From NCBI RefSeq assembly GCF_023612255.1, contig NZ_CP063231.1, forward strand, positions 1,842,001 to 1,906,000: DNA of 64,000 bases, read 5' to 3'. Origin of the DNA: Luteibacter flocculans. Lineage in GTDB: Bacteria > Pseudomonadota > Gammaproteobacteria > Xanthomonadales > Rhodanobacteraceae. Below the pieces are notes generated by a model. The model was not told the origin of the DNA. It saw nothing but the letters and a program-made list of their open reading frames with translations, and searched no databases. Positions 10,505 to 30,772 of the stretch are shown one piece after another. Each line of letters opens with the position of its first letter. The stretch's first letter is position 1. A program made the position numbers and the translations under genes.

Positions 10505-11137
10505 ATGGTCATTATGAACCGTTGGAATCGTATCGCCACGTTGGCCGCCGCCGTGCTCCTGGGCGCTTGCGCCACGGGTGGAAGCACGCTGCCCCCGCCC
10601 AAGCCGGATGCTGGCAGTCAGGCCGTGGACGCCTACCTCATCGGCGTCGACGACCAGTTGCAGGTCACCGTCTGGCACAACCCGGACCTGAGCGTCAGCG
10701 TGCCCGTGCGGCCCGACGGCAAGGTCACCGTGCCGCTGGTCGGTGATGTGCCCGCGGGTGGTCGCACCACCGAGCAGGTAGCGGCGGAGATCCAGCAAAA
10801 GCTGGCGCAGTACATCCGCGACCCGCAGGTCGCCGTGATCCTCACTGCGTTGCGCAGTCACGAATACCTGTCGCGAGTTCGAGTGACCGGTGCCGTGCGC
10901 AGTCCCATTTCCATTCCCTACCGACAGGGCATGACGGTGCTCGACGCGGTGCTCGCCGCAGGCGGCACCACCGAATTCGCAGCGGCCGATCGCACCGAGT
11001 TGTACCGCCGCAATGGCGGCGGCTCGACGCAGTCCTATGCGGTGCGTCTGGAAAAGATCCTTCAGCAGGGCGACCTCGCGAACAACTACCCGGTGCAGCC
11101 GGGCGACGTGATCACGGTGCCGCAACGCGCTTTCTGA
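10505..11137 (+). CDS. polysaccharide export lipoprotein (Wza/GumB-like)
   Basis: A 210-residue outer-membrane polysaccharide export protein. The signal peptide ends in the lipobox LLGAC. A Poly_export domain follows (GVDDQLQVTVWHNPDLS, then VRPDGKVTVPLVGDV) and then one SLBB domain (VTGAVRSPISIPYRQGMTVLDAVLAAGG). It is short, with a single SLBB domain, as in the export proteins of XrtA/PEP-CTERM loci, rather than the long E. coli Wza. ATGs at 10505 and 10514 are both possible starts. First gene of the exopolysaccharide operon. Confidence 0.9.
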   Translation: MVIMNRWNRIATLAAAVLLGACATGGSTLPPPKPDAGSQAVDAYLIGVDDQLQVTVWHNPDLSVSVPVRPDGKVTVPLVGDVPAGGRTTEQVAAEIQQKLAQYIRDPQVAVILTALRSHEYLSRVRVTGAVRSPISIPYRQGMTVLDAVLAAGGTTEFAAADRTELYRRNGGGSTQSYAVRLEKILQQGDLANNYPVQPGDVITVPQRAF

Positions 11138-11173: not shown

Positions 11174-12706
11174 ATGAGCGGGGAACTCGTTCCTTTCGCG
11201 GGCATGCTGCCCGCACTGATCGGCGAGGCGCGCAGGCGCCGCGTCGTGATGGGTGTGATGTTTGCGGGAATTGCCCTGGTGGCGCTCGCGGTGGGCAGCG
11301 TGTGGCCGAAGAAGTACGAGGCATCGACGACGATCCTCGCCCAGGAAGCCAGCATCATCACGCCGTTGATGGAAGGTGCCGCGGCAGCCACAGGCAACAA
11401 GAACCGCGCCGGCATCGCGCGTGACGTGATCTTCAGCCGCAAAGTGCTCGACGAGATCCTGCAGACCGGCGGGTGGCTGGCCGGCAACCCGTCGCCGGTA
11501 GAACGGGACAAGATCGTCGACGGCATCAAGTCGCGGACGCGCATCGTCAACAACCGCGACAACCTCATCACCATCAGCTATTTCGATTCCGATCCCAAGC
11601 GTGCCTTCGAGGTTACCCGCGCGTTCGGCCAACTCTTCATCAGCGAGAGCCTGGCCTCGAAGCAGCGCGAAAGCCGCGAAGCCTATGAATTCATCAACAG
11701 CCAGGTCGAGGCGTACCGCACCAAGCTCACCGACGCGGAAGACAAGCTGAAAGCCTATCGTGACGCCAACCCCGACGCGCGGCCCGGCAGCGAGATCGAC
11801 ACCAATGCGCGGATCAGCCAGTTGCGCACGCAGATCGAAAGCAACCGCATGGACTACATGCAGAAGCAGTCGCAGGCGGCAGCGCTGTCGTCGCAGTTGA
11901 GTGGCGAATCCGAGGTCAATGCGGTGCAGACCGTAGGCGGGATCTACCAGACCCAGCAGGCCGACCTGCAGGCCCAGCTCGATACCTTGCGCCTCAACTA
12001 CACCGAGGATTATCCGGACGTGGTGCGGCTGCGTCACCAGATCGAAGATCTGCGCAAGCAGGCCAGCTCGGCGGCTGCGCAGCGCCCGGTCGGCGGTGCC
12101 TTGCCGCTCGACCATGCGGTGACGATGAATCCGGTCTACCAGCAGATGCGCCTGCAACTGGCCGCCGTGCGCAGCGATGCCGCGGCGAGTGCCGCCCGCG
12201 TCGGTGCCAGTGAGGCCATGCTGCAAGCCGAACTGGAACGCAGCAAGCGCATTGCGAATTCCGAGAACGTGACGGCGGAGCTGACCCGCGATTACACGGT
12301 CAATCGCGACGTTTATCAGGACCTGCTGAAGCGCCGCGAGAATGCGCGCGTGTCGATGAACCTCGATGCGGAGCAGCGTGGTCTGACCTTCCTCGTGCAG
12401 AACCCTGCGGTCATGCCGCTGGTGCCGTCGGGCCTGCGTTTCATGCACTTCGGGCTGGCCGGTCTTGCCCTCTCGCTCGCGATTCCGTTCGGCCTGCTGT
12501 TCGCCCTGGCGCGCTTCGATCCGCGCGTGCGCTCGGTGACCCAACTGGAACGCGCCACCGGCTTCCCCGTGCTCGCCACCGTGCCGTTCTATCCCACGCC
12601 GCGCGACCGTCGCCGCGAACAACTGCACAACACGATGCTCGTGCTGATCGTGGCCGGCGTCGGCGCGGTGTACCTGCTGGTCTTCTGGCTGCGAATGAAG
12701 GGCTGA
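11174..12706 (+). CDS. Wzz-type chain-length determinant (XrtA-locus type)
   Basis: A 510-residue polysaccharide co-polymerase. It has a membrane helix at about 24-44, a long periplasmic region rich in coiled coil (about 170-290 and 320-380), a second membrane segment near 428-450 and an extra helix at the very C-terminus (about 485-505). The segment ELTRDYTVNRDVYQDLLKRR before the last helices is the signature I associate with the PEP-CTERM/XrtA chain-length family. It sets polymer length together with a BY-kinase. It has no fused kinase domain; the next gene, two bases downstream, encodes the kinase-like partner. Confidence 0.9.
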   Translation: MSGELVPFAGMLPALIGEARRRRVVMGVMFAGIALVALAVGSVWPKKYEASTTILAQEASIITPLMEGAAAATGNKNRAGIARDVIFSRKVLDEILQTGGWLAGNPSPVERDKIVDGIKSRTRIVNNRDNLITISYFDSDPKRAFEVTRAFGQLFISESLASKQRESREAYEFINSQVEAYRTKLTDAEDKLKAYRDANPDARPGSEIDTNARISQLRTQIESNRMDYMQKQSQAAALSSQLSGESEVNAVQTVGGIYQTQQADLQAQLDTLRLNYTEDYPDVVRLRHQIEDLRKQASSAAAQRPVGGALPLDHAVTMNPVYQQMRLQLAAVRSDAAASAARVGASEAMLQAELERSKRIANSENVTAELTRDYTVNRDVYQDLLKRRENARVSMNLDAEQRGLTFLVQNPAVMPLVPSGLRFMHFGLAGLALSLAIPFGLLFALARFDPRVRSVTQLERATGFPVLATVPFYPTPRDRRREQLHNTMLVLIVAGVGAVYLLVFWLRMKG

Positions 12707-12708
12707 CG

Positions 12709-13473
12709 ATGAACAAGATGGCTGCCGACAACATCGAAATCGGCGACGTGGTCGCCCCGCATCACGCCGACCCGCACACCGCGAACCATTCGATTGCGCG
12801 GATGCGCGAGGAGGGCGGCGCGCTGGCGCCGATCGACTGCGAGCGAAAGCGGCTCATTCACCGCGAGGAATCGGTACGCCAGCAATCCGACGCGTTTCGC
12901 GGCATCCGTACCCGCTTGCTGGAAATGGCGGGGGAAAACAACTTCGTGACGCTGGTGGTGGCGGTCAGCCCGCGGTCCGGCGGTAGCTTCGTCGCGCGCA
13001 ATCTCGCCACCGCGTTCGCCTTCGACGAATCGAAGACGAGCCTGCTGGTGGATTGCAACCTGCGCTATCCGAACCAGCACAAGGCGTTCGGTGTCGAACC
13101 GCGCACCGGCGGCTTGATCGACTTTCTCGAGCATCCGTCGCGCGGCATCGCCTCGATCATGTACCACACGGGTGTGCCGCGCCTGCGGCTGATTCCGGCC
13201 GGCAAGTCGCGCGAGAACAGCGGCGAGTACTTCTCCTCGTTCCGCATGCGCGCCGTACTCGATTCGCTGCGCTGCCGTTATTCGGACCGCTATCTGTTTC
13301 TCGACGGGCCGCCGGTCAAGGGCTCGCCGGATGCCCGCATTCTTTCGGACCTAGCCGACTTCGTGGTCCTGGTTGCGGGCTACGGCCGGGATACGCCCGC
13401 CACGATCAACCAGGCCGTTGCCAATTTCGACCCCGCGAAGCTCGCCGGGGTGGTGTTCAACCAGTCGCCGTGA
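12709..13473 (+). CDS. BY-kinase/ParA-like protein with degenerate P-loop
   Basis: A 254-residue cytosolic homologue of bacterial tyrosine kinases of exopolysaccharide loci. The order of motifs is kept: SDAFRGIRTRLLEM at 60-73, P-loop position 88-94, Walker A' LLVDCNLRYP at 112-121 and Walker B-like YLFLDGPP at 195-202. The P-loop reads SPRSGGSF instead of xxGEGKST, so the nucleotide-binding Lys is missing. The C-terminus ends VVFNQSP with no Tyr-rich tail. It may therefore act as a non-catalytic partner of the chain-length protein encoded two bases upstream. Function as an active kinase is unlikely. Confidence 0.85.
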   Translation: MNKMAADNIEIGDVVAPHHADPHTANHSIARMREEGGALAPIDCERKRLIHREESVRQQSDAFRGIRTRLLEMAGENNFVTLVVAVSPRSGGSFVARNLATAFAFDESKTSLLVDCNLRYPNQHKAFGVEPRTGGLIDFLEHPSRGIASIMYHTGVPRLRLIPAGKSRENSGEYFSSFRMRAVLDSLRCRYSDRYLFLDGPPVKGSPDARILSDLADFVVLVAGYGRDTPATINQAVANFDPAKLAGVVFNQSP

Positions 13474-13532: not shown

Positions 13533-14894
13533 ATGCCCGCATCGTCCAGGCTCACCCGCGCCATCGTGCTCGGGCTCGCATCGGCACCCGCCGCGGCGTT
13601 CGGAGGGACACTCGATTACACGCTCTACGCCGGCCTCGAGCACAGCAACAATATCGCGCTGTCGTCGGATCAGCCCCTCAGCGAGAACGTGCTGACGCCG
13701 GGTGCGACCTTTCAGTACCTGCAGACCGGCTCGACGTTCCAGGCCAACGTGCTGGGCACCTTCGAATACCGCAAGTATCTCAACAATCACTTCTCGTCCC
13801 AGGCGCAGACCGAACTGGCCGGGCAGGGTAACTGGACCATCGCTCCCGACCGGCTCGATCTGTCGATCGAGGACTATGCCGGCGTGCAGCCGGTGGACCA
13901 GCTTGCCAGCAACTCGCCCGGCAACCAGCAGCAGACCAACGTGCTGGTGGTGGGGCCGACGCTGCGCATGCGCTTCGGTGAGGCGGCCCGCGGTCAGGTC
14001 GAACTGCGCTACATCAACAGCTATGCGTCGAAGACCGACGACTTCGACTCGTCGCGAGGGCTGGCGGCGTTCCGGGTCTACCGTGACCTGTCGCCGTTGG
14101 AACAGGTCTCGGCCAACGTCGAGTTCCAGCGCATCGATTTCAGCAATCAGCCGAGCGATGCCAACTACGATCGCAAGGAAGCCTTCGTGCGCTACACCAG
14201 CACGCTGGCGCGATTCGACGCGGACGTGCTGGTCGGCGGTACGCGGCTGTCGTTCGACAGCGGCCGCGATCTCTCGGCCCCGTTGGCGCGCTTGCGCATT
14301 GGCTGGCAGCCCACACCACGCAATGCCTTCACGCTCAGCGGCGTGTATCAATACGCCGATGCGGCGCAGGATGTCATTACGGCACCGGGTGTCTACGGTG
14401 TCGGTACCACGTCGGACGGTGTGCAGCCGATCGATCCGTTCGCCGGTACCGGGGGCCTCGGGCGTGGCAACGGCACAGGCATCGGCGTCGGCAGCGCGGT
14501 CATCGGATCGCAGGTCTACAAAGAGCGTCGCCTCGACGCCACCTGGAACTGGCGCTCGGAGCGCCTGACGCTGACCGTCGCCCCGGGCTTCAGCAAGCTT
14601 CGCTACATCGGCGACCGTACGTTCGACCAGACCGATCACGGCCTCAGCGTGGGCCTCGGTTATCGCTTGCAGCCGACGCTCACCCTGACCGGCTTCGCCA
14701 CACTGGACCGGCTGACGTACGACCGCATCGACCGCAAGGACACGACCGTGCGACTCGGCCTCGATCTCGGCCAGCAATGGAACCGGCACTGGAGCTGGCA
14801 CGCCACGGTGGCCCGCGAGCGGCGCAACAGCGACGCGGTGGGACAGGATTATCGCGAGACGCGGTTCTTCATCGGCGTGGTCTACCGGAGATGA
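13533..14894 (+). CDS. outer-membrane beta-barrel protein of the exopolysaccharide locus (TIGR03016-like)
   Basis: 453 residues. A signal peptide of about 22 residues ends ...APAAAFG. The mature chain starts LDYTLYAGLEHSNNIALSS and is made of alternating amphipathic strands rich in Tyr, Arg, Asn and Asp. It ends in YRETRFFIGVVYRR, typical of a barrel's last strand. The start at 13533 follows AGGGGA; an upstream open frame has no signal peptide. It resembles the outer-membrane proteins of XrtA/PEP-CTERM loci and probably helps polymer secretion or surface attachment. Its stop overlaps the next gene's ATG. Confidence 0.8.
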   Translation: MPASSRLTRAIVLGLASAPAAAFGGTLDYTLYAGLEHSNNIALSSDQPLSENVLTPGATFQYLQTGSTFQANVLGTFEYRKYLNNHFSSQAQTELAGQGNWTIAPDRLDLSIEDYAGVQPVDQLASNSPGNQQQTNVLVVGPTLRMRFGEAARGQVELRYINSYASKTDDFDSSRGLAAFRVYRDLSPLEQVSANVEFQRIDFSNQPSDANYDRKEAFVRYTSTLARFDADVLVGGTRLSFDSGRDLSAPLARLRIGWQPTPRNAFTLSGVYQYADAAQDVITAPGVYGVGTTSDGVQPIDPFAGTGGLGRGNGTGIGVGSAVIGSQVYKERRLDATWNWRSERLTLTVAPGFSKLRYIGDRTFDQTDHGLSVGLGYRLQPTLTLTGFATLDRLTYDRIDRKDTTVRLGLDLGQQWNRHWSWHATVARERRNSDAVGQDYRETRFFIGVVYRR

Positions 14895-15673
14895 GCATGC
14901 ATCCTGACGCGGAATTGCCGTTCTTCTTCGGTGCCGACGGTGGTCTGTTCGGCATGTATCACGCGCCGACGCTGCCCGCACGACGTGCCGTGCTGATGTG
15001 CCCGCCACTGGGCCAGGACCTGATCCGTTGCCATCGCGTCTACCGGCAGTTGGCGCAGGCGTTGATGGCACAGGGGCTCGCGGTGCTGCGCTTCGACTAT
15101 CACGGTACAGGCGACTCCGCGGGCGACAGCGTACACGTCGATTGGGACCGTTGTGTCGCCGACACGGTCATCGCGGCCGATGAGCTGCGTCGACGCGCCG
15201 GTGTGGAACGCGTGGTGGCCTTCGGCGCCCGACTGGGCGGCAGCATCGCTCTTTGTGCCGCATCGCGCGCGCGCTTTGCCGAAGTGATCGCATGGGATCC
15301 CGTGCTGGACGGCGACGCATATGTTGCGGCGCTCGATGCCATGCAGGCGGCGTTGCGCGAGGACGCCGATCGCTTCACCCGGCCGCGCAGCCATGCCGAC
15401 GTGGCCGAGCAGTGGCTCGGCTTCGATGTCGGTGCCGCGCTTCGCGAGCAGTTGTCTACGTTGCGCGTGGCCTCGGCAGACGTCCCGACGATGGTGCTCG
15501 ATTCCTTGCCTGTCTCGGCAGAACCGCGCTGGGAAGCGCTGGTGTCCTCGCGCGGTCGCGTGGCCGCGCTGTCGCCGCCCACGCCGTGGGACGACCTGCG
15601 TCGACTGGAGACCGCCATTCTCTCCCAACCCCTGATCCAGGCCGTCAGCGGCCGCTTGAAGGAGACGGCGTAA
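14891..15673 (+). CDS. alpha/beta-hydrolase-fold protein, exosortase-A hydrolase 2-like, nucleophile missing
   Basis: A 260-residue protein with the alpha/beta-hydrolase outline: VLMCPPLGQD (oxyanion strand), VLRFDYHGTGDSAGD and a nucleophile-elbow equivalent FGARLGGS. Residue 114, where Ser or Cys is expected, is Arg. This Gly-x-Arg-x-Gly form is what I recall for the 'hydrolase 2, exosortase A system-associated' family, so loss of the nucleophile may be family-wide. A classical hydrolase reaction is therefore doubtful. ATG at 14891 overlaps the barrel stop; 14897 is an alternative with GGAG at better spacing. Confidence 0.75.
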   Translation: MSMHPDAELPFFFGADGGLFGMYHAPTLPARRAVLMCPPLGQDLIRCHRVYRQLAQALMAQGLAVLRFDYHGTGDSAGDSVHVDWDRCVADTVIAADELRRRAGVERVVAFGARLGGSIALCAASRARFAEVIAWDPVLDGDAYVAALDAMQAALREDADRFTRPRSHADVAEQWLGFDVGAALREQLSTLRVASADVPTMVLDSLPVSAEPRWEALVSSRGRVAALSPPTPWDDLRRLETAILSQPLIQAVSGRLKETA

Positions 15674-16509
15674 TGCGCGAGGAAGCCCATCGCTTCGGTC
15701 GAGGCCGTCACCTGGTTGGTGTCGCTGGTTTGCCCGATACCGAACCGGGCGAGACGGGCGTCATCGTGCTCAATGCGGGGCTGGTCCATCGCATCGGACC
15801 GTTCCGGCTGCATGTGGAACTGACCCGTCGACTCAACGCTTCCGGCTATCCGACGCTTCGCTTCGATCTCTCGACGCTCGGCGACAGCAGCGCGACGGGC
15901 GGTGGACAGACCCGCACGCAGCAGGTGTGTGCGGACGTGGATGACGCGATGAAGCTGCTCGCCGAGCGCGCCGGCTGCACTCGCTTCGTGTTGTTCGGCC
16001 TGTGCTCCGGCGCGCAGAACGCGCACATCGTCGCCGCGACCGACCCGCGCATCTCAGGGGCGGTGTTTCTCGACGGATATGCGTATCGCACGCTCGGTCA
16101 TCGCTTGCGCCATTACCTGCCGCGTCTTACCGACCCGGAACGTTGGGCGCGCATGCTGCGACCCGGCGCGGCCAACGGTGAGCGCGAGGCCAAACCGGCC
16201 AGCGAACCCGTCTTTGCGGTGGCGCCGGCGCCACGCGAGGAAGTCATCGCGGATTTTGCCGGCATGGTCTCGCGGGGCATGAAGCTCTATCTGGTCTATT
16301 CCGGCGGCATCAGCGCCTACTTCAATCACGCCCGGCAATTCCGCGAATGCTTTGGACGGGTGATGAAGCATCCCGCCGTGACGACGCGCTACATCGCTGA
16401 GGCCGATCACACCTACATCCTCACCGGCGACCGGGCACGTCTCCTCGATGGCGTCGGCGGCTGGCTCACGCGCCATTTCCCACCGGCACTCGCCCGGAGT
16501 CATGCATGA
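15673..16509 (+). CDS. alpha/beta-hydrolase, exosortase-A hydrolase 1-like, Cys elbow
   Basis: A 278-residue hydrolase-fold protein. The nucleophile elbow reads GLCSG at 109-113, putting Cys111 at the catalytic position as in dienelactone hydrolases. FDLSTLGDSSA precedes it, and the ADH triplet near residue 253 can supply the His. It resembles 'hydrolase 1, exosortase A system-associated'. Its ATG overlaps the previous stop by one base (TAATG), so the two hydrolases are translated together. The substrate is unknown; acyl or carbohydrate-ester groups of the polymer are guesses. Confidence 0.75.
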   Translation: MREEAHRFGRGRHLVGVAGLPDTEPGETGVIVLNAGLVHRIGPFRLHVELTRRLNASGYPTLRFDLSTLGDSSATGGGQTRTQQVCADVDDAMKLLAERAGCTRFVLFGLCSGAQNAHIVAATDPRISGAVFLDGYAYRTLGHRLRHYLPRLTDPERWARMLRPGAANGEREAKPASEPVFAVAPAPREEVIADFAGMVSRGMKLYLVYSGGISAYFNHARQFRECFGRVMKHPAVTTRYIAEADHTYILTGDRARLLDGVGGWLTRHFPPALARSHA

Positions 16510-17510
16510 ACTCGGTCCTCGTCACAGGCGGCGCCGGTTACATCGGCAGCCATACGGTGCAGCAACTGGTCGAGCGCGGTGATCGCGTCGTGGTGCTCGA
16601 CAACCTCTCCACCGGGTTCCGCGAGGCCGTCCACGGCGCGGTCCTGATCGAAGGGGACGTGGGCGACATGGATCTCGTGTCCCGCGTGCTGGAAGCGCAC
16701 CGCGTGGACGCCGTGTTGCACTTTGCGGCACACACCGTGGTGCCGGAGTCGGTCAGCGATCCGCTGAAGTACTACGGCAACAACACCTGCAATACGCGTA
16801 ACCTCCTGGCGTGCTGTGCACGCGCGGGCGTGGACAAGTTCATCTTTTCGTCCACGGCTGCCGTCTACGGAACGACCGAGGCCGGTGTCGCCGACGAGAA
16901 CACCGTGACACGGCCCATCAATCCTTACGGCACATCGAAGCTCATGTCCGAGACGATGCTGCGCGATTGGTGCGCCACGGGCGCGATGCGTCATGTGATC
17001 CTCCGCTACTTCAACGTGGCCGGTTGCGACCCGTCGGGCCGGATCGGTCATTCCACGCCGCAGGCGACGCTGCTGGTCAAGGTGGCTTGCGAGCACGCCG
17101 TGGGCAAGCGGCCCTGCATCTCCATCTACGGCACGGACTACGACACGCCGGATGGCACGGGGGTGCGCGATTTCATCCACGTGGAAGATCTCGCCGCGGC
17201 ACACCTGCGCGCGCTGGATTATCTGCGCGGCGGTGGCGATTCGCTCACGCTGAATTGTGGCTACGGGCATGGCTACAGCGTCCGCGAAGTGCTGGACGCG
17301 GTGGCGCGCGTAGCCGGCCATCGCCTCAATGTGGTGGAGCTACCGCGCCGTCCTGGTGATATTCCCAGCCTCATCGCGCGCAGCGATCGCCTGCGCGAGG
17401 TGCTCGGATGGACACCGCGCTACGACGATCTCGACGTGATCGTGGGAACCGCGCTCGCGTGGGAACACCACCTGGCTGGCAGCGACGTCCGCGCTGCGTC
17501 GGTGGCATGA
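16506..17510 (+). CDS. galE: UDP-glucose 4-epimerase
   Basis: A 334-residue short-chain dehydrogenase-fold epimerase with the NAD motif GGAGYIG at 8-14, Ser/Thr at 115-117, and the catalytic pair Y141 and K145 (YGTSK). PINPYGTSK, LRYFNVAGCDP and IYGTDYDTPDGTGVRDFIHVEDLA are the GalE signatures. It interconverts UDP-Glc and UDP-Gal (or the GlcNAc pair), so it supplies a sugar nucleotide to this locus. It overlaps both neighbours by ATGA. Confidence 0.93.
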   Translation: MNSVLVTGGAGYIGSHTVQQLVERGDRVVVLDNLSTGFREAVHGAVLIEGDVGDMDLVSRVLEAHRVDAVLHFAAHTVVPESVSDPLKYYGNNTCNTRNLLACCARAGVDKFIFSSTAAVYGTTEAGVADENTVTRPINPYGTSKLMSETMLRDWCATGAMRHVILRYFNVAGCDPSGRIGHSTPQATLLVKVACEHAVGKRPCISIYGTDYDTPDGTGVRDFIHVEDLAAAHLRALDYLRGGGDSLTLNCGYGHGYSVREVLDAVARVAGHRLNVVELPRRPGDIPSLIARSDRLREVLGWTPRYDDLDVIVGTALAWEHHLAGSDVRAASVA

Positions 17511-19204
17511 ACGCGAGCGTGACCTTGCGCGCCCGACGTCGGCGTTACCACGTCCTGGCGGCGGCCGACGTCGCGCCATCGACCGCGTCGCGTCATGTGC
17601 TTGTCGTGCTGGCTTGCCTGCTTGCCCTGGCCTTTGCGGCATGCCCTCTCGTTGGCGACGCATCGCCCGCGAAGACGGCCGCGAATACGACCTTCGAGGT
17701 TCACCGATTGGCGGGGAAGGGCGACGATCTTCCTGTGACGGTGGGCATCCCGTTTCCGCCCGGCCTTCTTCACGACGCCGCGCAGGTGCGCATCCTCGAC
17801 GCCAAGGGGCATGAGGTGGCGGCGTCTGTGACCGCCAGTCTCACCTGGCACGTGGGCCCCGGCGGTATTCGCGCGGTGCGCGTGCAGTTTCATGGACCGC
17901 CCGGCGTCTATCGGTTCGCGTTCGATGCACCGCGCACGATGCAGGCGCATGCGTGGCCCTATGGCGAAGGGTTGATCGACGGTCGCCCGGCGGCCCTCGC
18001 CACGCTCACGCCCGCATGGCTGACGGCATCGCTGATCGCCGGTCCGCAGTCGGTCGCGTCGCGCGACGAAGCCTATGCGCGCTATGTGGATGCCCAGTTC
18101 CACTGGGCCCGAGCCTTGCCCAAGGATGACCCCACGGCATGGCTGTTCGATCGTCCGTCGACCCTGTTCAAGGCGTACGTACGCACCGGCCGTGCCGACT
18201 ATCTCGAAGCGGCCGAGATGAGCTATCGCTGGTACATGGCCGGCATCAAGCGTGATGGTCTCCCTGTGAGCCCTTCCTGTGGCGGTGGCTGGCTTCCCGA
18301 CGGCAAACCGTGCGACGTGAAGTACGTCTACATCGAGCCGATCCTGCTCGCCGTGGCACTGACCGGCGACGCCTCGATGCACGATGCCGCCACGGTGGGG
18401 AAGATGGCGGACCTTTGGCAAAGCGGCGGCTGGAACGGGCCGCCCGGGCCGTATCGCCACCCCAAAGACTATTTCACCGAGCGGCTGGCGGGTCTGGGGC
18501 TGCTCGAGACCGTGGCTGCTTTCGAACTCACCGGCGATCCGCGCTACCGCGAACGCATCGACGCACGCGTGGGTTGGTTGTACGAGCATCAGCGAGCGAA
18601 TCCCGACGGCCTGGGCAACGACGGCTCCTGGCGCAACAGTTGGAACGTTCACGAGAACGATCCGAACGGCAGCGGTGACGTGCGCGGCAGTTCGCCCTGG
18701 ATGAGCGAGAACATCATCGATGGTCTCTGGCACGCGTGGCTGGTGACAGCCGATCCGCGCATTCCTACGATGATGACGGGCTTCGGTCGCTATCTTGAAA
18801 CGTACGGCTGGATCGACCCGAAGCTACTGGTACCGCCGCACGACTGGCGCAACGGATGCTCCGGACCTCATGGATTGATCGCCTGGTACTGGTCGTCGGC
18901 ACACGCGAGCACCGAAAGCCTGAGCGCCATCCAGGAAAGCGAGGGCTGGTACAGCGACGGCCATGACGTGGAACTCGGGCTGCCGATCGCCGCCGCGTGG
19001 TATTTCGAGAAAGATCCCACGCAGGCGGCGGCGCTCAAGCGACGCTTCACCGGGTTGGCGTCCTCGTACAGCACGGAGTGCGCCGCCATCTCCGACACCG
19101 CGCGACGCTTCAACTGGAACAACCGCGGGGCAGGGGTGGCGCAGTGGATGATGGCGCAGCCGGCGGGTATCGGCGCGCATCCGGTCGCGGGGGTGTCGCG
19201 ATGA
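17507..19204 (+). CDS. secreted protein, predicted (alpha/alpha)-barrel glycan-active enzyme
   Basis: 565 residues. A long, Arg-rich N-terminus leads to a hydrophobic segment at about 30-48 (signal anchor or signal peptide). Residues 62-140 form a beta-rich domain whose opening DLPVTVGIPFPPGLL resembles the N-domain of exo-rhamnogalacturonan lyase-like proteins. The rest is helical with repeated aromatic motifs (WLFDRPSTLFKAYVRTG, YVYIEPILLAVALTG, ERLAGLGLLETVAAFELTG), as in alpha/alpha toroids. It may trim or cleave the polymer in the periplasm. No catalytic residues can be named, so the role is inference. It overlaps galE and the flippase by ATGA. Confidence 0.7.
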   Translation: MNASVTLRARRRRYHVLAAADVAPSTASRHVLVVLACLLALAFAACPLVGDASPAKTAANTTFEVHRLAGKGDDLPVTVGIPFPPGLLHDAAQVRILDAKGHEVAASVTASLTWHVGPGGIRAVRVQFHGPPGVYRFAFDAPRTMQAHAWPYGEGLIDGRPAALATLTPAWLTASLIAGPQSVASRDEAYARYVDAQFHWARALPKDDPTAWLFDRPSTLFKAYVRTGRADYLEAAEMSYRWYMAGIKRDGLPVSPSCGGGWLPDGKPCDVKYVYIEPILLAVALTGDASMHDAATVGKMADLWQSGGWNGPPGPYRHPKDYFTERLAGLGLLETVAAFELTGDPRYRERIDARVGWLYEHQRANPDGLGNDGSWRNSWNVHENDPNGSGDVRGSSPWMSENIIDGLWHAWLVTADPRIPTMMTGFGRYLETYGWIDPKLLVPPHDWRNGCSGPHGLIAWYWSSAHASTESLSAIQESEGWYSDGHDVELGLPIAAAWYFEKDPTQAAALKRRFTGLASSYSTECAAISDTARRFNWNNRGAGVAQWMMAQPAGIGAHPVAGVSR

Positions 19205-20748
19205 ACCGTCGTCTCGCCGTATTACGCAGTGTCGGTATCGTCACGGTGTCCACGTACATCGAGTACGCGCTCGGGCTGTTGATGAGCGTGTGGATCGCGC
19301 GCTCCCTCGGTCCCGCGGACTTCGGCCGTTATGCGTTCACGATATGGCTGTGCGGCTGGTTGATCGTCTGTTCCAACCATGCACTCACGACCTCGTCGAC
19401 GAAGTTCATCGCCGAAGCCGATGGCATGGGCGATCCCCATCTGGGCTCGCATCTTGCCGCGCGCTTCTCGCGCATCCAGACGGTCAGTTCCGCCATTGTC
19501 ATCGCCTTGTTCGTCGCCGTGGCCTGCGTTGTCCGCCCATCGGAATGGGAAGGCTCGCTGTTGCCGGTCATGGCACTGGTGGTCGTCGCGGTGGTGGCGA
19601 AGGCGAACTACGCCATGCTCGTCGCCATCGGCAAAGGCCAGGAACGCTTCGAACCCGAGGCCATCGCGACCGTCATCGGCGGTGTCGTGGGCATGCTGTT
19701 GGTGCTTGCGGCCATGTTGATTCATGCAGGTCTGGTCTCCTTCGTGGCCCTGTTCACGCTGGCCTGCCTTCTGCTTAACGTCATCAACCGCCTCGCCTAC
19801 CGCCACTACTGTCGCCCCTATGCGGCGGGTGCCATCCCGCCGACCGTGGCGAAGCGGGTGAACCGCCATTTGCGCCTGACCGCGGGTCTCGTGCTCATGG
19901 GCTCGTTTCGTGCGGGAACGATCGAGGTCTTTCTGCTCACGACATTCACCGGTTCGGTGGCGGTGGGCTATTTCGCGATTGCCGGCACGCTGACTCGCGG
20001 CGCGGTGCAACTGTTCTCGGTAGGGCTCACCTCGACGTTGCTTCCCTACATGGCGAAGACCTTCGGTGAGAGCGGCACCGCGCGCGCCGCGCGCTTTCTT
20101 TCCGAGGCCACACGTTTCTACTGGGCAGTCGGCGTCGCCATCGCGGGGCTGGGCATCGTCACCACGCCGGAGATCGTGCGCCTGATGTATGGCACGCGGT
20201 ACGTCGATGCCATTCCCGCCATCGAGGCCACCCTCGTGCTCGGTGGTCTGCTGCTGATCGGCAACGGCATCGCCGCGTTCCAGACCGTGGTCGATCGCCA
20301 GGATGACCGCATCCGCATCGCGGTGGTCGCGCTGGTCGCGAACCTCGTGCTCGGTGTCGCACTCGTACCCCCGCTGGGGCTGGCCGGCGCCGTGCTCACC
20401 TACGCGGGTACGCGCATCGTGGAAATGGCGCTCGCCATCCATTACCTGCGCAAGGCGACTAGCGGCGCTTTGCCGATCGCGGCGATGTCGCGCCTGTTCG
20501 CCGTGGGTCTCGTCGCCACGCTGGCCGCCTGGGCGGCGACCGCTGCCACGCCGTCGCGGCTCGGTTTCCTCGTCGGCGCGGCCACGTTCGTTGCCCTGTA
20601 CGTGCCGGGAAGCCTGCTTGTTCGCTACTGGACGACGGACGACGTCCAGTTGATGACCGGACTCGGTCGCCGTCTGGGGCCACCCGGCCGCGTGCTCGTG
20701 CGCGTGCTGCACGCCATCCATCCACCGGTCGCGAAGGCCAGCCCATGA
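19201..20748 (+). CDS. Wzx-type polysaccharide flippase (MOP superfamily)
   Basis: A 515-residue polytopic protein with about 13-14 membrane helices. The N-terminal part (WIARSLGPADFGRYAF) is the polysaccharide-synthesis family signature. The midsection GSFRAGTIEVFLLTTFTG and the later MYGTRYVDAIPAIEATLVLGG also match O-antigen/capsule flippases. It should move lipid-linked repeat units across the inner membrane. Its presence implies a Wzx/Wzy-type pathway, but no Wzy polymerase or glycosyltransferase is found in the window. Confidence 0.9.
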   Translation: MNRRLAVLRSVGIVTVSTYIEYALGLLMSVWIARSLGPADFGRYAFTIWLCGWLIVCSNHALTTSSTKFIAEADGMGDPHLGSHLAARFSRIQTVSSAIVIALFVAVACVVRPSEWEGSLLPVMALVVVAVVAKANYAMLVAIGKGQERFEPEAIATVIGGVVGMLLVLAAMLIHAGLVSFVALFTLACLLLNVINRLAYRHYCRPYAAGAIPPTVAKRVNRHLRLTAGLVLMGSFRAGTIEVFLLTTFTGSVAVGYFAIAGTLTRGAVQLFSVGLTSTLLPYMAKTFGESGTARAARFLSEATRFYWAVGVAIAGLGIVTTPEIVRLMYGTRYVDAIPAIEATLVLGGLLLIGNGIAAFQTVVDRQDDRIRIAVVALVANLVLGVALVPPLGLAGAVLTYAGTRIVEMALAIHYLRKATSGALPIAAMSRLFAVGLVATLAAWAATAATPSRLGFLVGAATFVALYVPGSLLVRYWTTDDVQLMTGLGRRLGPPGRVLVRVLHAIHPPVAKASP

Positions 20749-28726: not shown

Positions 28727-30244
28727 ATGACCTCGATCAAGCAGCAAGACCTCATCACCAGCGTCGCCGACGCGCTCCAGTACATCTCGTACTACCACCC
28801 GGTCGATTACATCCAGAACCTGTCCGCGGCGTACGAGCGCGAGGCATCCCCGGCGGCCAAGGACGCCATCGCCCAGATTCTCATCAACTCGCGCATGTGC
28901 GCGGAAGGCCACCGGCCGATCTGCCAGGACACCGGCATCGTCACCGTCTTTCTGAAAATCGGCATGAACGTGCGCTGGGACGACGCCACCATGGGCGTCG
29001 AGGACATGGTCAACGAGGGCGTGCGTCGCGCCTACAACCATCCCGACAACAAACTGCGTGCTTCGGTGCTGGCAGACCCTGCGGGCAAGCGCATGAACAC
29101 GCGCGACAACACCCCGGCCGTGGTCAACGTGTCCGTGGTGCCCGGCGACAAGGTCGACGTGATCGTTGCCGCCAAGGGCGGTGGCTCGGAAGCGAAGTCG
29201 AAGTTCGCGATGCTCAATCCGTCCGACTCGATCGTCGACTGGGTGCTCAAGACCGTGCCCACGATGGGTGCGGGCTGGTGCCCGCCGGGCATGCTCGGCA
29301 TCGGCATTGGCGGCACCGCCGAGAAGGCGATGCTGCTGGCGAAGGAAGCGCTGATGGAGCCGATCGACATCGTGGACCTCATCGCGCGCGGCCCGTCCAA
29401 TCGCGCCGAGGAACTGCGCCTGGAGCTGTACGAGAAGGTCAATGCGCTCGGCATCGGCGCGCAGGGCCTGGGCGGGCTCACGACCGTGCTCGACATCAAG
29501 GTCAAGGACTATCCGACCCATGCTGCGAACCTGCCCGTGGCGATGATTCCGAACTGCGCGGCGACTCGCCATGCGCACTTCGTACTCGATGGCTCGGGGC
29601 CGGTCGCGCTCGATCCGCCGTCGCTGGACGACTGGCCGAAGCTCACCTACGACGCCTCCAAGGGGCGCCGCGTGGATCTCGACACGATCACCCGCGAAGA
29701 CGTGCAGAGCTGGAAGCCGGGCGAGACGATCCTGCTCAACGGCAAGCTGCTTACCGGCCGCGACGCCGCGCACAAGCGCATGATCGACATGCTCAACCGT
29801 GGCGAAACCCTGCCGGTGGATTTCACCAACCGCTTCATCTACTACGTGGGCCCGGTCGATCCGGTGCGCGACGAGGTGGTGGGTCCGGCCGGTCCGACCA
29901 CGGCGACGCGCATGGACAAGTTCACCCGTCAGATGCTGGAGACCACCGGCCTGCTCGGCATGGTCGGCAAGTCCGAGCGCGGCCCGACGGCCATTGATGC
30001 GATTCGCGACAACAAGGCCGTGTACCTCATGGCCGTGGGCGGTGCTGCCTACCTGGTTTCCAAGGCGATCAAGGCATCGCGTGTGTTGGCCTTCGAAGAC
30101 CTCGGCATGGAGGCGATCTACGAGTTCGAGGTCAAGGACATGCCGGTCACGGTCGCGGTCGACAGCGCCGGTACCTCCGTGCACGAGACCGGTCCGAAGG
30201 AATGGCGCTCGAAGATCGGCAAGATTCCGGTCGTCGTGGTGTAA
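28727..30244 (+). CDS. fumarate hydratase class I (4Fe-4S)
   Basis: A 505-residue oxygen-sensitive fumarase joining the alpha and beta domains in one chain, as in E. coli FumA/FumB. The cluster cysteines are C66 (CQDTG), C185 (GWCPPG) and C276 (IPNCAATRH). The beta domain starts near residue 340 with GRRVDLDTITREDV. It hydrates fumarate to malate in the TCA cycle. The start at 28727 has no clear Shine-Dalgarno. It is divergent from the thioredoxin gene and is followed by a large repeat array. Confidence 0.95.
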   Translation: MTSIKQQDLITSVADALQYISYYHPVDYIQNLSAAYEREASPAAKDAIAQILINSRMCAEGHRPICQDTGIVTVFLKIGMNVRWDDATMGVEDMVNEGVRRAYNHPDNKLRASVLADPAGKRMNTRDNTPAVVNVSVVPGDKVDVIVAAKGGGSEAKSKFAMLNPSDSIVDWVLKTVPTMGAGWCPPGMLGIGIGGTAEKAMLLAKEALMEPIDIVDLIARGPSNRAEELRLELYEKVNALGIGAQGLGGLTTVLDIKVKDYPTHAANLPVAMIPNCAATRHAHFVLDGSGPVALDPPSLDDWPKLTYDASKGRRVDLDTITREDVQSWKPGETILLNGKLLTGRDAAHKRMIDMLNRGETLPVDFTNRFIYYVGPVDPVRDEVVGPAGPTTATRMDKFTRQMLETTGLLGMVGKSERGPTAIDAIRDNKAVYLMAVGGAAYLVSKAIKASRVLAFEDLGMEAIYEFEVKDMPVTVAVDSAGTSVHETGPKEWRSKIGKIPVVVV

Positions 30245-30347: not shown

Positions 30348-30772
30348 GGTGGGAGCCAGCCTGCTGGCGATCCTACGAAGCGAGGTGCGGAGCCCTGTTA
30401 GCAATCCAGGCCTGCTGGGAACCGCACTGTCGGCACTCGGCTCGGTGGGGGCCAACCTGCTGGCGATCCTACGAAGCGAGGTGCGGAGCCCTGTTGGCAA
30501 TCCAGGCCTGCTGGGAACCGCACTGTTGGGACTCGGCTCGGTGGAGCCAGCCTGCTGGCGATCCTACGAAGCGAGGTGCGGAGCTCTGTTGGCAATCCAG
30601 ACCTGCTGGGAACCGCACTGTCGGTACTCGGCTTGGTGGGAGCCAGCCTGCTGGCGATCCTACGAAGCGAGGTGCGGAGCCCTGTTGGCAATCCAGGCCT
30701 GCTGGGAACCGCACTGTCGGCACTCGGCTCGGTGGGAGCCAGCCTGCTGGCGATCCTACGAAGCGAGGTGCC
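30348..30772. repeat. 96-bp tandem repeat array, about 4.4 units
   Basis: Units start at about 30348, 30444, 30540, 30635 and 30731 (96, 96, 95 and 96 bp; one unit lacks a single G). Each begins with the REP sequence GGTGGGAGCCAGCCTGCTGG and continues with CGATCCTACGAAGCGAGGTG and a 56-base section unique to this locus. Units differ by only a few substitutions. The last, partial unit runs into the 3' end of the acetate kinase gene on the opposite strand. It fills the gene-free interval 30245-30755. Confidence 0.95.

Follow-up and report, generated by a model that had tools for sequence, protein, structure and literature searches.

A lysine-less BY-kinase homologue conserved in XrtA-type exopolysaccharide loci is probably a pseudokinase scaffold of the co-polymerase

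What does a BY-kinase homologue do beside an intact chain-length protein when both its catalytic lysine and its tyrosine tail are gone? According to the standard model, a co-polymerase of secreted polysaccharides depends on repeated rounds of Tyr phosphorylation and dephosphorylation. The question is raised by a gene in the window, a 64,000-nucleotide stretch of the complete, 4.30-Mb genome of Luteibacter flocculans (NZ_CP063231.1, positions 1,842,001 to 1,906,000). The first-pass annotation of this DNA took the product for a pseudokinase that keeps a structural or regulatory role in the control of polymer length. The pseudokinase reading is supported by the absence of the P-loop Lys, by purifying selection, by the fold, by synteny and by the lack of a second BY-kinase over the cut-off in the genome. 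Its catalytic deadness and its role in polymer length control are what we infer. We consider it likely that the protein is a BY pseudokinase of the XrtA lineage, in which both Lys and Tyr tail have been lost and which survives in the cytoplasm as a scaffold of the co-polymerase.

The features of the locus and of the protein are listed in Table 1. The locus was assigned to the XrtA-type exopolysaccharide (EPS) loci because it encodes proteins matching TIGR03027 and TIGR03007, a TIGR03016-like barrel and hydrolases resembling the exosortase-associated ones. A GNAT-domain protein comes after the flippase on the + strand. Between GalE and the flippase, an open frame at 17606-19204 encodes a protein of about 530 aa. 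It is a conserved member of the locus in both Luteibacter and Dyella, and at E 0.01 it is matched by no model of Pfam or NCBIfam. The chain-length protein passes the TIGR03007 cut-off (385 vs 279 bits), in agreement with the earlier statement that this neighbor is intact. It ends 86 residues past the start of its second hydrophobic segment, and among the Pfam and NCBIfam profiles no kinase domain was found in it over a cut-off. The topology of the chain-length proteins was read by eye; in this one, the loop FDPRVRS...GFPVLATVPF lies between the second and the third, C-terminal, hydrophobic segments.

Table 1. Position and basis of the features of the locus and of the BY-kinase homologue (window coordinates)
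Feature	Position	Strand	Basis
Polysaccharide export protein, XrtA/PEP-CTERM type	10505..11137	+	TIGR03027 over cut-off
Polysaccharide co-polymerase/chain-length protein, XrtA type, without BY-kinase domain	11174..12706	+	TIGR03007 over cut-off
Lysine-less BY-kinase homologue (BY pseudokinase), 254 aa	12709..13473	+	ORF, ATG start, profile matches, fold
DAFRGIR, residues 61-67, at the position of the BY-kinase oligomerisation motif EX2RX2R	12889..12909	+	Alignment
Degenerate P-loop SPRSGGSF, residues 87-94 (P-loop stretch VSPRSGGSFVARNLA)	12967..12990	+	Sequence, alignment
Walker A' LLVDCNLR, residues 112-119; D115 kept, N117 replaces second Asp, C116 family-specific	13042..13065	+	Alignment
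Walker B YLFLDGPP, residues 195-202, D199 kept	13291..13314	+	Alignment
C-terminus VVFNQSP and stop, without Tyr-rich tail	13450..13473	+	Translation
Outer-membrane beta-barrel protein, TIGR03016-like	13533..14894	+	Below cut-off
Alpha/beta hydrolase, exosortase-A-associated hydrolase 2-like	14897..15673	+	Below cut-off
Alpha/beta hydrolase, exosortase-A-associated hydrolase 1-like	15673..16509	+	Below cut-off
UDP-glucose 4-epimerase GalE	16506..17510	+	Profile match
Wzx-type flippase (Polysacc_synt)	19201..20748	+	Profile match, scanned from 19204

Two kinds of repeat were also seen in the window. A tandem array at 30348-30771 (96-bp unit, 4.4 copies, 94% matches) lies between an ORF ending at 30244 and an ORF starting at 30756, overlapping the latter by 16 bases, and 35 nt of its sequence are found again near 1169, 52313, 52348 and 59477. 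The other is an interspersed repeat around the palindrome GCCGCCATGGCGGC, at 1343, 9618, 27479, 27588, 52269 and 52483. Its six 32-nt copies show 72-100% identity to the reference copy.

The product of the gene at 12709-13473 is 94% identical to a protein of L. jiangsuensis CC60 (Rhodanobacteraceae, Lysobacterales). It has no match to Pfam models at E 0.01. The top NCBIfam model is TIGR03018 (XrtA-associated tyrosine autokinase), which is covered over its whole length and gives 174.6 bits against a cut-off of 230.65; six further Lys-less members score 151-200 bits. This cut-off was rejected as a means of separating Lys-less from Lys-bearing proteins, as two of the four Lys-bearing kinases tested also miss it (191.8 and 204.4 bits).

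An active BY-kinase requires the Lys of GxGK[ST]. In a phmmer alignment to CapAB, whose P-loop reads GAGKS, this position is taken by Gly92 (12982-12984), as the first-pass annotation had read it, and Ser93 is kept. Also lost are the opening Gly of the loop and the Glu in GEGK. The Walker A' and Walker B positions had also been said to remain. This holds for D115 and D199 but not for the second acid of the Walker A' DxD, which is Asn in this protein. The C-terminal Tyr cluster of active BY-kinases had been described as missing, and translation confirmed that the protein terminates GVVFNQSP. The motif EX2RX2R has been named as the oligomerisation motif of BY-kinases (PMC3795738). The window protein has D61-x2-R64-x2-R67 at its place, with Glu changed to Asp; both Arg are present in 95/95 family rows.

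A BY-kinase fold is predicted for the protein. The AlphaFold2 model, made from 95 rows, has a pLDDT of 87.7 and a pTM of 0.84, with residues 1-28 mostly disordered, and the modelled chain stops directly after the last strand. In Foldseek, CapAB and Wzc come out as the best PDB matches, with E 2e-15 to 1e-13 among the first rows. With VIA-align, CapA1B1 with Mg-ADP (Z 26.7, 2.0 A, 201 residues) ties with Wzc K540M (Z 26.5), and the best MinD reaches Z 17.2.

If the Lys had been lost in this strain only, its relatives should carry it. With the window protein as query, orthologues scoring E 1.7e-56 or better turned up in 96 of the 197 Rhodanobacteraceae genomes, and the next match, at 4e-20, is a Lys-bearing kinase. 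The genus is represented there by 19 genomes, that of the window among them, and each carries an orthologue. A 44-row profile found a member in 117 of 398 genomes of the order at 3.5e-67 or better, and the next match below family grade (6.9e-34) has the Lys. At the level of the class, 23 of 369 genomes have a member at 6.4e-55 or better, and three more, all from one family (E 4e-45 to 2e-43), are also Lys-less. Two class-level matches, G712 and G668, were flagged with one internal stop. A sample of 378 genomes from the phylum gave no family-grade match outside the class (best 3e-36).

P-loops were read in 74 of the 96 Rhodanobacteraceae orthologues found by score, and none has the Lys. They were also read for part of the order (117) and class (26) genomes; in this deeper order, class and phylum set, no family-grade sequence carries Lys. 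All fetched loci together gave 214 unique sequences. The Lys is present in 0 of the 165 that score above 160 bits, compared with 46 of the 49 below, and the three Lys-less sequences below this score form the f21 branch. When the P-loop was removed from both the profile and the sequences, Lys-less sequences scored at least 164.5 bits and Lys-bearing ones at most 137.4 bits, apart from the three lowest Lys-less sequences, which overlap the Lys-bearing ones in this P-loop-blind scoring (132.9-141.0 bits). The alignment of homologues that had been proposed as a check, with GKS/T as the thing to look for, thus found the Lys neither in the orthologues read nor in the sequences above 160 bits. A local mutation or sequencing error is excluded because the gene occurs throughout the genus and the Lys is absent from every orthologue read.

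A recent mutation and a decaying gene were rejected as well, in view of the change shared by the orthologues read, the low dN/dS and the intact frame. NG86 dN/dS between the window gene and 15 relatives (15 pairs) is 0.033-0.171, which indicates strong purifying selection; these are rough estimates since dS is 0.7-1.2, near saturation. The codon at the Lys position specifies G, S or A in all 16 sequences of this comparison.

To place the loss, a tree was made without the P-loop columns from 122 rows, 87 Lys-less and 35 with Lys. A single branch (SH-aLRT 94) sets all 87 Lys-less rows apart, and the Lys state changes once on this tree. Since the Lys-less rows are all beyond one branch, the tree fits one ancient loss; the branching order within it was left unused because the tree was built quickly and contains several long branches. 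The simplest course would be a single loss of the P-loop Lys and the Tyr tail at an early point in one exopolysaccharide-locus lineage. Some side branches have lost more. The most degenerate is L279-L281 (one family, three genomes), in which the loop and the Walker A' element are gone. Most of the P-loop is lost in L271 and L273. One genome has a second copy, L324, in which the loop is gone and Walker B carries an Asn. The genes of all these branches still adjoin a chain-length protein. Judged from their sequences, the side branches form a graded series from the loss of the Lys to the loss of most motifs, towards a state like that of EcpK.

The partner was compared in the same loci. A PCP homologue adjoins the gene in every pseudokinase locus inspected, with the export protein next, except at contig ends. 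In a chosen subset of loci, window included, the partners of Lys-less proteins score 235-1006 bits against the window chain-length protein (86 partners), whereas the partners of Lys-bearing kinases score 83-178 bits (27 partners). A D-x-[RK] motif, typically DPRVRS, follows the second hydrophobic segment in 82 of the 87 partners of Lys-less proteins (window included); among the 27 that belong to Lys-bearing kinases, 0 have it. The layout itself, with the loop ahead of a third hydrophobic segment, is shared by the XrtA-type partners of Lys-bearing kinases. These scores and the motif show that the partner PCP has co-diverged with the pseudokinase.

On these observations, a scaffold of the kind put forward for EcpK and HfsB is the most economical reading. 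The cytoplasmic end of the PCP contacts the kinase domain in CapAB and in the EcpK model (PMC12004946). Here, the pseudokinase probably docks on the conserved DPRxRS...GLPVLATVP loop of the adjacent chain-length protein; this site is a guess, because the partner has a third hydrophobic segment at its end instead of a cytoplasmic tail of 27-29 residues. Bound there, the pseudokinase would keep the co-polymerase ring assembled and would phosphorylate neither itself nor its partner. Non-phosphorylated Wzc K540M is octameric, and progressive phosphorylation disassembles the octamers (PMC8285477). With a natural Gly at the Lys position and no Tyr tail, the assembled state would be possible and the phosphorylation-driven exit from it would be removed. 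Since the tail of Wzc helps to hold its octamer, something other than a tail must do so here. Since Wzc is thought to need phosphorylation cycling, an unphosphorylated system would need another route of cycling, or none.

For a pure scaffold, it is odd that Ser93, D115 and D199 have been retained; in EcpK all motifs are gone. Conservation was examined in a joint alignment of 95 family rows and 28 Lys-bearing rows, in which the deeper rows had been sorted by Lys. Because the groups in this alignment and in the C-terminus counts are split wholly or partly by Lys, the Lys counts in them follow by construction; the counts that are independent of this sorting are those for the 74 of 96 orthologues, the score groups, the P-loop-blind scores, the P-loop-free tree and the partner protein. 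The Lys position holds G in 54 family rows, A in 24, S in 10, T in 6 and N in 1. Ser or Thr is retained at position 93 in 93/95 rows, D115 in 97% and D199, the Walker B Asp of active BY-kinases, in 99%. The second Walker A' position is Asn in 65/95 family rows and Asp in 29/95, compared with Asn in 2/28 canonical rows. Two residues are newly conserved, C116 (92/95 family vs 1/28 canonical rows) and D208 (93/95 vs 4/28 Lys-bearing rows).

One possible explanation for this pattern is that the pocket binds Mg-ADP/ATP or another nucleotide without hydrolysing it, and that binding or release takes the place of phosphorylation as the signal for opening and closing the co-polymerase ring. This would fit the retained Ser/Thr and the two Asp, and C116, beside the Walker A' Asp, could confer sensitivity to redox state. 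Wzc K540M with Tyr-to-Glu changes has been solved as Mg-ADP complexes (PMC11986026), so the loss of the Lys need not abolish nucleotide binding. Together with the kept Ser and Asp residues, this leaves room for a switch that senses nucleotide and does not hydrolyse it. However, the first loop Gly and the GEGK Glu are lost, the second Walker A' acid is Asn in most of the family, and L279-L281 are kept with neither the loop nor the Walker A' element. A paper on oxidation (PMC11194573) was rejected as support for redox sensing, since what it describes concerns DefA and PtkA and not an active-site Cys of the kinase. We regard a ligand-gated protein of this kind as rather unlikely. A broader history that includes it is put forward tentatively, as something that may have happened: the XrtA-type EPS lineage dropped Tyr phosphorylation in one step, and the pocket (Ser93, D115, D199 and C116) became a non-hydrolysing sensor. 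If this is true, a nucleotide or redox sensor uses the co-evolved DPRxR loop for binding and release and in this way gates the co-polymerase ring, and the side branches then lost the pocket entirely, ending as pure scaffolds like EcpK.

It is highly improbable that the protein is still an active kinase or ATPase of a non-canonical type, in which another basic residue, its own or that of a neighboring protomer, replaces the P-loop Lys. The first Walker A' acid and the Walker B acid are kept, and several basic residues are newly conserved in the family (R67 in 95/95 rows, R158 in 86/95, R181 in 85/95 and K244 in 77/95). R97, a basic residue beside the loop, is not retained in the deep branches, which speaks against it as the substitute. 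The C-terminus is without Tyr in 167 of 168 unique Lys-less sequences, compared with 3 of 46 unique Lys-bearing ones, and mutation of the Lys abrogates phosphorylation in Wzc (PMC8285477).

Other kinases were sought in the complete genome that holds the gene, a check that had been suggested with the first reading. No second BY-kinase was found over the TIGR01007 cut-off. The top match is the gene itself, at 77.8 bits and below the cut-off, and the six other places tested hold ATPases, namely MinD and another MinD-like protein, three of ParA-like type, and ApbC. Many Rhodanobacteraceae genomes have a second BY-kinase-like match (P-loops were read in some, for example L086, L087 and L090), and a proposal of this kind exists for CapB1/CapB2, with CapB1 inactive (PMC3795738), but the idea that the protein is an inactive partner and modulates some other, active BY-kinase of its own cell is the least credible of all, given a strongly constrained gene in a complete genome that has no other such kinase over the cut-off.

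A search of the same genome for a low-molecular-weight (LMW) Tyr phosphatase gave no match at E 0.01; the control search was positive in 11 of 14 genomes. A protein of this phosphatase family occurs in 185 of 197 Rhodanobacteraceae genomes, and of the 96 that carry the pseudokinase 6 lack it, as against 6 of the other 101. Absence of the phosphatase was therefore rejected as a general correlate of the pseudokinase. Because this absence is confined to the genome of the window and a few others, it indicates that the gene persists without these kinase and phosphatase partners and does not show that they were lost together. At least one complete genome thus keeps the family without another BY-kinase or LMW Tyr phosphatase over threshold, which offers a genetically simple system in which to ask how polymer length and export are run without phosphorylation.

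The exosortase was considered as another correlate. None was found over the PF09721 cut-off in the genome of the window (best 14.4 vs 25.7 bits), and the two hydrolases like the exosortase-A-associated ones (14897-16509) occur in spite of this. A strong exosortase (E 5.4e-63 or better) is present in 9 of 197 Rhodanobacteraceae genomes, all with a Lys-bearing kinase and none with the pseudokinase; these f1 genomes are G034, G070, G077, G096, G118, G126, G127, G155 and G166. Mutual exclusion fails across the class, however, where 10 of 23 genomes with the Lys-less gene have a strong exosortase (0 of 23 at the order level). Loss of XrtA is therefore not claimed as the cause of the Lys loss. Weak exosortase-family matches over the cut-off (E 1e-6 to 3e-11, about 150 residues; for example G110:C114 and G205:C14) were also seen in f1 and order genomes, many in frames of about 170-225 aa and nearly all without a strong exosortase. 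They are possibly a short exosortase-like protein.

The pseudokinase concept is already in print for EcpK (2025) and HfsB, which belong with other pairs to a published third PCP-2 subfamily of BY pseudokinases and kinase-less PCP-2 proteins (PMC12004946). Both were compared with the window protein by description and not by sequence. EcpK of Myxococcus xanthus, whose PCP-2 is EpsV, resembles it in having a stand-alone BY-kinase fold without catalytic residues or a Tyr tail, a PCP without a BY-kinase domain, a place in an EPS pathway and a proposed role as a phosphorylation-independent scaffold. As described there, EcpK has none of the three Walker motifs and ends in a basic helix at the C-terminus, and its gene lies apart from that of its PCP (PMC12004946). 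In contrast, the window protein keeps Ser93, D115 and D199, and its gene adjoins the PCP gene in an XrtA-type locus. HfsB of Caulobacter crescentus is also a stand-alone BY pseudokinase with a kinase-less PCP-2, HfsA, and is important for the stability of HfsA (PMC12004946). It differs in serving the holdfast system of Caulobacter, and the phylum genomes sampled outside the class held no family-grade match. HfsA and CapA have a cytoplasmic tail of 27-29 residues where the window chain-length protein has a third hydrophobic segment.

The TIGR03018 autokinase shares with the window protein its place directly after a TIGR03007-type chain-length protein. It differs in that the window protein has neither the Lys nor the Tyr tail, in a genome without an over-cut-off exosortase. 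Active Wzc and CapB autophosphorylate their Tyr tail, and the pseudokinase family is without Lys and tail. In titles and the beginnings of abstracts, mostly from non-subscription literature, no Lys-less family was found described in Lysobacterales or in XrtA-type loci. What is new is the lineage (XrtA-type loci of Gammaproteobacteria), the breadth, a Lys loss in which most acids remain, a partner that has co-diverged and, compared with the published pairs, the gene next to its partner and the signature of the partner loop. The BY-kinases CapB and Wzc are the closest solved folds, and the natural Gly92 falls on the residue that was changed in their laboratory mutants K55M and K540M. This widespread and strongly conserved family carries the natural counterpart of the kinase-dead laboratory mutant.
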